NCBI GenBank assembly: GCA_023853785.1
Contig: JAJIRX010000598.1
Span: forward strand, 62,001 to 126,000
Origin: Psilocybe azurescens
Taxonomy: Eukaryota; Basidiomycota; Agaricomycetes; Agaricales; Agrocybaceae
Length of the DNA stretch: 64,000 nucleotides
Reading direction: 5' to 3'
Shown: one piece after another, positions 46,766 to 49,714 of the stretch
Numbering within the stretch: the first letter of the stretch is position 1
Layout of the letters: each line of letters starts with the position of its first letter
Notes under the pieces: model-generated
Database searches by the model: none
What the model was told of the DNA's origin: nothing
What the model saw: only the letters and a program-made list of their open reading frames with translations
Position numbers and translations under genes: made by a program

Positions 46766-47310
46766 TAGTGATGTGTTTGCCCAGCTTGGCCTGGAAGCCA
46801 TGGCTTTGGAAACACAGGCCAGAGCCAGAGCCGTCCCAAGCCATAAGCCATGGCTTGGCTCTGGCCTGAGCCGTGGCTTTACAGGGTGTTGGGACAGGTG
46901 AATACAACTGTAAAAATAATCATAAAAAAATTATACAACCATGGTGTGTCATGTACTGATTTTCAATTTCATGCTATTGCATCCATAACTGCACCGACTT
47001 ACCAACAATATATGAAGTAACAGGATAAATGTGGCTGAAATTGGTGCTCCTGCTTATTTTTAAGTAAATGAGGTTCTAACTACATGGAATAAATGCAGAA
47101 CTGGAGAATTTTTGAACTACTAGTATGGACTGCAGAATCTTCGTTTTTTAAAAATTAAATGGGACAACCAAGCCATGGCTCAAGCCACGGCTCACGGCTT
47201 TCAAAAATCGAAGCCAGAGTCATGGGCTTTGGAAAGCCATCAAAAAGCCTGGCTTGGCTTGGCTTTTGGCGGCTGGCTCTGGCCTGTGGGCCAGAGCCAG
47301 CACATCACTA
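46766..47310. mobile_element. hAT-type MITE with 8-bp target-site duplication
   Basis: A 545-bp element with inverted ends TAGTGATGTG, flanked by perfect 8-bp direct repeats CCTTTCAC at 46758-46765 and 47311-47318. Sub-terminal regions carry many CCAGAGCC/GGCTCTGG motifs in both orientations, as in hAT elements where transposase binds. The middle is AT-rich with no transposase. The intact duplication suggests a fairly recent insertion just downstream of PMA1. Confidence 0.85.
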
Positions 47311-47656: not shown

Positions 47657-48094
47657 TTAGCAAGCAGTGCCAGGTGGAAGACTAATGCATCTAACGAGGC
47701 CAACAAAGATTCAGCATAGTCTGTGTATGACCCAATGAGACATACTAGCACTCACTTGAAGAAGGGAACAGCGCGACAGCAACTGAGACCCTGGTTACCT
47801 GTCGAACACACAGTGTAAGAAAAGAAGCGCCCGTTCAATCGATCAAGGAGGTAATTAGTTACAATCCTGTTGAAAATACACGTTAGGCGAATTCTTTATT
47901 TAATATTCAAAGTTTCAGCTTACAGCATCACTGGAACCTGCAGAGAGAAAAAATAGAGAAACGTCAGGCCTCGTACAGACGATTGAGAACTATGCGAACA
48001 TACATTGGGCACCGGGGCCACCTCCTGGAACAGCCATCACGGCCGAGCTGGAAACGAGCATAACGAGAGCAGCGAAGCTGAGCAATTTAAACAT
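47657..48094 (-). CDS. Secreted six-cysteine knottin-like peptide, copy 1
   Basis: Five exons (48004-48094, 47924-47937, 47863-47866, 47756-47798, 47657-47690; 91, 14, 4, 43 and 34 nt) splice to 61 residues. A signal peptide (MFKLLSFAALVMLVSSSAVMA) is followed by VPGGGPGAQ and a core with six cysteines spaced C-x5-C-x5-C-C-x7-C-x8-C, the Cys being the C-terminal residue. This C-C-CC-C-C order is that of inhibitor-cystine-knot peptides; the fold and role are inference. Two cysteine codons are split by introns as T|GT. The 4-nt exon is GATT. All introns have GT-AG ends and are about 52-66 bases. The same structure recurs in the neighbouring copy with different but synonymous bases at the junctions, which supports the model. 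No function is known; candidates include effector, antimicrobial or developmental signal. Confidence 0.8.
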
Positions 48095-48162
48095 CACAGA
48101 AAAGATTGTACGAGGGACTTTTCACAAGTGTGAATGTTATAAAATAAAGCATTAGAACCAGC

Positions 48163-48170
48163 CCTTTATA
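48163..48170 (-). promoter_or_regulatory. TATA box of peptide copy 1
   Basis: TATAAAGG on the minus strand, about 70 bases upstream of the ATG at 48094; the equivalent position in copy 2 has CATAAAAGG. Confidence 0.55.
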
Positions 48171-49285
48171 CGCGTTTGTGGAGGCTTGGCACTTCCCGTC
48201 TAGAGAGCCAAGCCCTTTTGGTTCTGCTCCATCGCCAATTACCAGCTCCCGGCGATTACAATTAGACACCTGGACACCAGTATTATGTACATGCATCGCG
48301 AAACTTTATGTTCTTTCTCACTGCATCTCCGAGTGCAGATTTGGCAAGGGCGTAACATGGAAATTGGCATGCACATGAAAAGCACAAGCGAACTAAAAAT
48401 AGCTTGCCAAGGATCCTCTAAATGAAGTTATAAACATTGGAAGCAATATGGACGCAAAATGGACACGCTTCACAGTCTGGTCCTCGCTTGCGGTTATATT
48501 CGTACCGTTTTGTAGTACACCCTTGGATTAAGATGCGTACCAGGGAATTCTAGTCATTGGTCGAAGAACGGGGATGTGTCTTGACATAGACGGTTACAGA
48601 GCTTCCTCTGCGTACACGTTAACTAGGTTAGTTAATGAGAGACCGCGTACACATGTTCCGAAGGTGTGTAAGATGCGGGAGTCACTAACGTTCAAAGTAC
48701 AGTCATAGTATTAGTTCATGCATATGTATAACTTACACCCCGTCCATCGGGTGCTGACATCAGAGGCTCGGTGATCGGTCCACTCCAGCCAAGATATACA
48801 TCTCTAGTAAATTTAGTCTTCTTCATCCAGGCCACGCACACTCCATGCCACTTGAATCAGAAAGTGGTTCTGTTACCTTTCTCATCCTCAGCGAAGCACT
48901 CAGTTAGATAGCCACATGATATTCGACGTTCAAACTATCAAAGTTCAGTATATATGTAGTTTGGGATCACTGGTTACCCAAGTGGCTATGTTTGTGAATA
49001 CCAGACGCAGTTTTTATATATAAGTATTTTAAATTGTCTCCAATCCAATTTTATTATTTGTAAAGTTTATTTTCAACGTATGATTATGAGCCTCAGCATT
49101 CAAACCTACATATATACCCCCGGTATTCATTTCGCTATCATTAACAACCTCAATTGTATTCTTTACTAACAAGCTATACCGGTATTGAATTCCTACAGAA
49201 AAAGGAGATCTGTAGGCTTATTCCAGCAGTTTCATTATCTATAGAGATCACTTACACAGTACCCTTCCGATAGCAATTACGCAGT
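48171..49285. other. Spacer between the duplicated peptide genes
   Basis: Upstream region of copy 1 and 3' flank of copy 2, largely part of the duplicated units. The stretch near 48700-49080 is unique and AT-rich, with no supported gene. Confidence 0.5.
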
Positions 49286-49714
49286 TCAGCAAACAGCACC
49301 GGGAGGAAGGCGAACACATCTAAAAGATCAATACAGTATTAGCTAAACTGGTGTAAAATATTGTACGATGGACTAGTTCTTACTTTGGAAACGGGATCGC
49401 TCGACAGCATTGGAGACCATAGTTGCCTGACAAGCACAGAATGTCAGAAAAGAAGCGCTCGGCCGGAGGGACTATTTGGTACAATCCTGTGGAAAAAATC
49501 AAATTAAAAGTTAATTTTGTATAATGTCTATAGCCTGTACTTACAGAATTACTAGCGCCTGAAGAGAAGGGTAGTGAGAAACATGAGGACTCGCAATGAT
49601 ATTGGAGAACTATGGGAACATACACTGAGCTCCGGGGCCGCCTCCTGGAATAGCTATCACAGCCGAGCCGGAAACCAGCATAACGAGCACGGAAAGGCTG
49701 AACAATTTAAACAT
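49286..49714 (-). CDS. Secreted six-cysteine knottin-like peptide, copy 2
   Basis: Paralogue of the gene at 47657-48094 with identical exon sizes (49624-49714, 49545-49558, 49483-49486, 49384-49426, 49286-49319). It encodes 61 residues: a signal peptide (MFKLFSLSVLVMLVSGSAVIA), IPGGGPGAQ, then the same C-x5-C-x5-C-C-x7-C-x8-C core. About two-thirds of core residues between cysteines differ or are conservatively changed in the first loop, while RA(V/I)PF and LPPG are kept. The micro-exon is again GATT, and the split Cys codons read T|GC here against T|GT in copy 1, so the reading is kept though the bases differ. This indicates selection on the protein. Function is unknown. Confidence 0.8.

Follow-up and report, generated by a model that had tools for sequence, protein, structure and literature searches.

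A tandem pair of genes for probably secreted, knottin-like peptides with a predicted 4-nt exon in Psilocybe azurescens

Inhibitor cystine knot (ICK) peptides follow the consensus CX3-7CX3-8CX0-7CX1-4CX4-13C, in which the C4-C5 loop generally has no more than 6 residues (excerpt of PMC4942781). For fungi, excerpts of two papers describe the Fungi1 knottins, namely Avr9 of C. fulvum, AvrP4 and MLP124266 of Melampsora, and proteins of Histoplasma and other ascomycetes, with the spacing C-x4-C-x5-C-x4-C-x2-C-x5-C given for MLP124266 from its NMR disulfides (PMC4503680, PMC6889267); further fungal knottin-like proteins are described in Emergomyces (excerpt of PMC12705615). Very short fungal exons are on record as well, excerpts of the respective papers reporting a 1-nt exon with read support in Fusarium CYP621A (PMC12940212), a shortest exon of 6 bp among Phanerochaete P450 genes (PMC1184071) and a regulatory micro-exon in Trichoderma Xlr2 (PMC11121469). 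Here, we describe two neighboring genes, A and B, for small cysteine-rich peptides of Psilocybe azurescens, together with their copies elsewhere in the same genome. The host is one of the psilocybin mushrooms, a group of interest for its chemical ecology. The window, by which we mean the whole stretch of 64,000 nt that was analyzed, is part of contig JAJIRX010000598.1 in an assembly of 70.4 Mb and 937 contigs. The genes are ordinary in kind, being of the small, probably secreted cysteine-rich protein type, and unusual in structure.

Gene structure and copies

Genes A (48094-47657) and B (49714-49286) lie head-to-tail on the minus strand with 1620 nt between their starts, inside a tandem duplication in which the flanks on both gene sides are duplicated too (features in Table 1). 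When spliced by sequence, each gene consists of five exons of 91, 14, 4, 43 and 34 nt, separated by introns of 57-66 nt in A and 56-65 nt in B that are GT-AG throughout, and both spliced frames are open and encode 61 amino acids. The two proteins are identical at 43 of 61 positions (44 of 62 with the stop counted), and both place their cysteines at residues 31, 37, 43, 44, 52 and 61, giving the exact spacing C-x5-C-x5-CC-x7-C-x8-C with the last cysteine as the final residue. A sequence-only reading of this DNA had proposed a tandem gene pair of five exons each, with 61-residue products and identical cysteine spacing; exon placement and open frames bear this out, so that at the level of sequence the gene pair, its exon structure and its spacing are confirmed as first noted. 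An exact TATAAA, present upstream of gene A, is absent from the 150 nt upstream of gene B.

Table 1. Positions of gene features and of a nearby insertion in the window
Feature	Position	Strand	Remarks
Gene A exon 1, 91 nt: signal-like N-terminus and short Pro/Gly linker, to first base of Cys31	48094-48004	-	GT-AG splicing; within tandem repeat
Gene A exon 2, 14 nt	47937-47924	-	GT-AG flanks; length identical in B, A', B' and gene C
Gene A exon 3, 4-nt micro-exon GATT: Asp36 and first base of Cys37	47866-47863	-	4 nt in all five copies
Gene A exon 4, 43 nt: remainder of Cys37, CC pair, PF-K loop	47798-47756	-	
Gene A exon 5, 34 nt: Cys52, LPPG, terminal Cys61, stop	47690-47657	-	
TATAAA, 76 nt upstream of gene A start codon	48165-48170	-	shared with A' (-76) and gene C (-49)
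Gene B exon 1, 91 nt	49714-49624	-	
Gene B exon 2, 14 nt	49558-49545	-	
Gene B exon 3, 4-nt micro-exon GATT	49486-49483	-	P. cyanescens model CVT25_001992 reads through the equivalent place, then stops
Gene B exon 4, 43 nt	49426-49384	-	
Gene B exon 5, 34 nt	49319-49286	-	
Haplotype-specific 545-bp insertion downstream of gene A, outside the gene; inverted ends TAGTGATGTG, 8-bp target duplication CCTTTCAC	46766-47310	.	absent from allelic C35

The length of exon 3 is 1 modulo 3, and joining exon 2 directly to exon 4 shifts the frame. Inspection by eye finds that, given the exon 3 acceptor, the sole donor in A and B that keeps the frame before a stop lies 4 nt in; gene C would also allow a longer in-frame exon 3 of 22 nt, the 4-nt form being common to all copies. 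In gene C the micro-exon reads GACT instead of GATT, a synonymous change. Since the introns on either side are only ~60 nt long, sequential removal of two short introns would be a natural mechanism for including this exon. An exon of 4 nt in a fungus is unusual yet has precedent, and one that is kept with a synonymous change between diverged paralogs offers a clean test case for ultra-short exon splicing in fungi.

The assembly was searched exon by exon with peptides A, B and C at E up to 10, which yields counts that are lower bounds. At least five copies were found (A, B, A', B' and C), all of them with A and B as queries; query C retrieved A, B, A' and C but not B', and added a weak match on contig C477 (E 0.03) that was rejected, since the local reading frames resemble those of some other, unrelated gene. 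The window has its allelic haplotig in contig C35, and the 20 kb that were compared fall into colinear blocks of 92-99% identity. On C35, A' is intact and differs from A by one amino acid. Exons 2-5 of B' (at 22.9 kb) are intact as well, with a single residue of the cysteine domain changed relative to B; exon 1 of B' shows a +2-nt difference by which the signal peptide loses its frame, owing to either a broken allele or an assembly error. Gene C (contig C668, 13170-11897, minus strand) is a paralog that has diverged from A to 51% identity and keeps the five exon lengths and the cysteine spacing of A and B. All five exon lengths are thus shared by A, A', B and C, and those of exons 2-5 also by B'; 26 of 61 columns are invariant among A, B and C, including all six cysteines. 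A second haplotype copy of gene C was not seen, 1.2 kb of its 5' flank having no match elsewhere in the assembly. The last intron of gene C, intron 4 (C668:12833-11931), is 903 nt long and contains an 846-bp foldback, palindromic at 410 of 423 half-positions, whose ends begin CACTG and which has TCA at both flanks. Given the frame fault of B' and this foldback, not every copy of the family need be active.

The haplotypes also differ in length outside the genes. The 545-bp insertion downstream of gene A (Table 1) is presumably a hAT-type MITE-like element, and ~1.04 kb of the other haplotype (C35:15295-16336) is unmatched in the window.

Separately, a WAP search of the genome picked up a second secreted cysteine-rich family at four loci (C40:67672, C40:50555, C289:27016 and C693:6373), with a signal-like start and C-x5-C-x5-CC followed by four further cysteines. 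The WAP match exceeds the cut-off at all four loci and covers profile positions 15-34 or 15-33 only. Three exons were placed at C693:6373; the third exon at C40:67672, as delimited, is 2 modulo 3 in length, and the exon pattern search gave two exons at C40:50555 and none at C289:27016.

Constraint and selection

Splice forms were enumerated over the first 470 nt of each gene (GT-AG introns of 40-130 nt, no more than 4 per form; products of at least 45 amino acids). The exact cysteine pattern occurred in 7 of 4974 distinct proteins from gene A and in 1 of 42173 from gene B. Six of the seven pattern-bearing forms of A were inspected; exons 4 and 5 are common to those six, and one of them has the architecture of B. 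When 45 random substitutions, equal to the A-B distance, were placed in the A coding sequence, the open reading frame and all six cysteines survived in 206 of 200000 trials, and keeping the 16 splice-site bases multiplies this by a further factor of ~0.012. At the A-C distance they survived in none of 100000 trials.

Differences between copies are biased toward synonymous changes. Nonsynonymous substitutions number 1 of 8 between A and A' (6.1 expected, p 0.00025; the other 7 are synonymous), 22 of 45 between A and B (34.1 expected, p 8e-5), 40 of 74 between B and C (55.6 expected, p 7e-5) and 1 of 4 in exons 2-5 of B and B' (p 0.04). The corresponding dN/dS ratios are 0.04 (A/A'), 0.20 (A/B), 0.12 (B/C) and 0.09 (B/B', exons 2-5), with 0.135 (A/B) and 0.16 (B/C) for the cysteine domain by itself; ratios are omitted for A/C and A'/C, where synonymous sites of the full coding sequence are saturated. 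Judged from these substitutions, selection on the family is purifying, not diversifying, and positive selection is rejected with dN/dS well below 1. The comparison of dN/dS between copies had been suggested by the sequence-only reading, and the A/B ratio lends no support to diversifying evolution. That reading had also stressed that residues between the cysteines changed and the cysteines did not. The cysteines and their spacing are indeed kept, but 14 of 25 non-cysteine residues in the A/B cysteine domain are identical as well and the selection is purifying.

One comparison weighs on the other side: when exons 2, 4 and 5 are pooled, A and B are identical at 61 of 91 nucleotides (67%), barely more than in the introns (155 of 242, 64%). 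The clear contrasts in the A/B alignment are the identity of exon 1 (75 of 91, well apart from the introns), the gap columns (0 in exons vs 11 in introns) and the synonymous bias. The frame fault in exon 1 of B' and the foldback insertion in gene C intron 4 are what might be expected of pseudogenes in decay, with frames that have stayed open by chance, but the frames and splice sites of A, A', B and C are intact, and both the synonymous bias and the random-substitution control make such decay highly improbable.

Fold class and possible function

By eye, the translations of A and B begin with K3 and a hydrophobic stretch that ends in an A-x-A-like motif near residue 21, so both peptides are probably secreted. 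The earlier description of them was right on mushroom origin, and the secretion that it proposed is likely. The six cysteines are invariant in A, B and C and sufficient for three disulfides. With loops of 5, 5, 0, 7 and 8 residues, A and B fit the ICK consensus in four loops and depart from it in the C4-C5 loop (7 vs 1-4), and none of the 4 Pfam families matched by A, B and C at E up to 10 is a knottin or toxin model. The knottin assignment made at first sight is therefore retained for the C-C-CC-C-C order, which fits, and is not sustained for the C4-C5 loop or by any Pfam knottin match. That these peptides work like knottins is plausible from their cysteine framework; that they are knottins is a claim weakened by the loop that fails.

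Searches of the PDB gave mixed and insignificant matches, which were rejected as an identity. The profile of A, B and C matched 13 entries, among them Mu-theraphotoxin-Cg1a (E 0.17-0.33), DKK2 (0.22), DKK4 (0.86) and DKK1 (4.1) and no fungal knottin. The gene A core matched Mu-theraphotoxin-Cg1a (E 0.51), the mature part of B gave seven matches from E 0.7, and the gene C core matched an eggshell-membrane protein (E 0.0066) of which no single stretch passes. Two bacterial NCBIfam families were at chance level and were likewise rejected.

A longer C4-C5 loop is normal in the first subdomain of the colipase/Dickkopf C-terminal domain, and the peptides could be a single unit of this non-ICK type, an alternative that we hold to be unlikely while giving it some weight. 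In its favor, the A/B loop of 7 residues goes beyond what the ICK consensus allows, three Dickkopf proteins appear among the PDB profile matches, and gene B scores 13.5 bits against Dickkopf PF21481 (E 0.08). DKK2, with C-x5-C-x4-CC-x8-C, spans the same length as C1-C5 of A and B and aligns free of gaps from before C1 to C5 with its CC pair one residue earlier (E 1.2 for the whole sequence, 28 for the stretch alone). Yet every one of these matches is insignificant, and a spike glycoprotein, an unrelated protein, scores alike with gene B (E 0.098). The Dickkopf C-terminal domain is an animal domain of two subdomains with more cysteines, as against the six of A and B. Searching the genome itself with PF21481 gave no match over the cut-off, a weak test because the exons are split. 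Membership in PF21481 is rejected, the score being below the cut-off of 27 and the match limited to one of three family members. Since C1-C4 and C2-C5 pairing would be common to ICK and colipase/Dickkopf folds, the two readings may merge.

Taking these results together, the family probably consists of small, conserved, undescribed, secreted three-disulfide peptides of knottin-like type. We consider it fairly probable that A, B and C are a small family of intact, five-exon, spliced genes for such peptides, with defence as their likeliest job. On this preferred reading, A and B would be a head-to-tail duplicated intact pair and C a diverged member on another contig. Splicing of the five exons, including the third of 4 nt, from each pre-mRNA would yield a 61-residue precursor; removal of a signal peptide of ~21 residues would leave a Gly/Pro-rich lead and a 31-residue core; and the six cysteines would form three disulfides, most likely C1-C4, C2-C5 and C3-C6, in a compact knottin-like secreted peptide. 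By analogy, this product would most likely act outside the cell to protect mycelium or fruit body from fungivores or competitors, through binding to a membrane protein or an enzyme.

The residues D36, N38, G40, L41, P48, F49, K51 and L55-P56-P57-G58 are invariant, which suggests a kept surface made up of the loops that follow the CC pair. Net charge of the mature peptides, estimated by eye, is near zero in A and C and about +2 in B; the near-zero values argue against a simple cationic pore-former, and together with the conserved PF-K-C and LPPG they suggest peptides that bind a specific partner, not ones that lyse membranes. As to function, the leading guess, drawn from analogy and held tentatively, is defence against fungivores or competitors. 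Close behind it, and itself somewhat doubtful, is a role in the fruit body as secreted proteins of development or of the wall surface. A small copy number (the tandem pair and one paralog), low net charge and purifying selection would suit such a role and are unlike fast-evolving arms-race toxins; against this, defence peptides too can stay conserved over such divergence.

Public relatives and comparison with known families

With gene A alone as query, no match was found in a database of ~5.8 billion proteins. A three-sequence profile of A, B and C drew 9 candidates, of which 2 proteins matched at E up to 10; both are annotated as hypothetical proteins of Psilocybe cyanescens. CVT25_001992 is identical to gene B at 29 of 36 positions from early exon 1 through exon 2, with its own start differing from exon 1; its letters fit the first two junctions of A and B, beyond which it continues across the 4-nt exon into the following intron and ends with DCTK. 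CVT25_003288 matches exon 1 of gene C at 29 of 34 positions and then, in another frame, the end of gene C intron 4 and exon 5 at 19 of 25, from which we infer that its gene has a short intron 4 that lacks the foldback. The sequence-only reading expected gene finders to go wrong on these genes, and both database relatives are indeed models that depart from the structure proposed here. A gene in five pieces with a 4-nt exon may be the reason why public annotation garbles its relatives.

The annotated end of CVT25_001992 at DCTK is also what would be seen if the real product were a short form that retains intron 3 and stops soon after the 4-nt exon, leaving exons 4 and 5 noncoding. By eye, an in-frame stop does follow soon after exon 3 in A and B, and later in C. 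Such a short form is very unlikely, given that exons 4 and 5 are open with their cysteines kept in three diverged paralogs, that dN/dS in the cysteine domain is low, and that the read-through tails of A, B and C are unlike in length and sequence.

The plasma-membrane ATPase next to the genes in the window is 100% identical (99% covered) to P. cyanescens CVT25_001990, followed by Psilocybe cubensis at 97%, with Agrocybe, Gymnopilus, Galerina and Hypholoma also present (best 120 of 7998 scored); these matches place the window in P. cyanescens or a close ally. The contig given for CVT25_001990 has the same length, 20,296 bases, as that of CVT25_001992. In these related mushrooms present in the protein database, an annotated relative of the peptides was not found by a search that needs shared 5-residue words; annotation failure may equally hide relatives there, and absence is not implied. 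Pattern scans matched 45 stretches in viral contigs and 217 in bacterial and archaeal genomes, with 0 confirmed in either set. A report of Psilocybe cystine knots was not found in the open-licence literature. Histoplasma cystine-knot proteins are reportedly the subject of a 2025 Cell Reports paper cited in PMC12788632, and the 'mycelial knotting' of PMC9958986 is unrelated to knottins. Within the literature and protein database searched, the family appears to be undescribed.

Because the public P. cyanescens annotation departs from the proposed gene at its tiny exons, secretome surveys would miss such peptides. Should the knotted fold be true, it would add a knottin-like family with the animal-type CC framework in a mushroom lineage, one that is not represented among the fungal knottins named in the literature excerpts. 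A bolder proposal, to which we give a low probability, is that this undescribed family is a minimal six-cysteine fold between ICK and the first colipase/Dickkopf subdomain, that the conserved 4-nt exon amid its cysteine core conceals it in public genomes, and that genes of this kind could be a blind spot for many more mushroom peptides.

Among known families, the WAP domain shares the C-x5-C-x5-CC segment with A and B, and the match of gene A to WAP PF00095 (23.6 bits, cut-off 20.8) is the sole Pfam match above a curated cut-off. WAP is an eight-cysteine, four-disulfide domain, whereas the peptides have six cysteines and the match covers profile positions 15-39 of 41 (25 residues) in gene A, one of three family members; as a partial match in one of three paralogs, WAP membership was rejected. 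Late nodulin/NCR PF07127 matches two of the three family members at E up to 10 (best E 0.0051) and was rejected at 17.6 bits for gene A vs a cut-off of 30.4.

Like known fungal micro-exons, the predicted exon 3 is ultra-short, would be required for the correct product and is readily missed by automatic annotation; unlike them, it is 4 nt long and lies within the cysteine core of a probably secreted peptide. Like the Fungi1 knottins, A and B are small, probably secreted fungal six-cysteine peptides with a C-terminal cysteine domain (excerpts of PMC4503680 and PMC6889267). MLP124266, on which the contrast with Fungi1 rests in those excerpts, is without a CC pair and has a spacing unlike that of A and B. 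The peptides resemble the ICK venom peptides of spiders and cone snails in their C-C-CC-C-C order, adjacent third and fourth cysteines, core of ~31 residues and likely secretion, and differ from them in a C4-C5 loop of 7 vs 1-4 residues, the lack of a significant sequence match, their fungal origin and a gene with a 4-nt exon.
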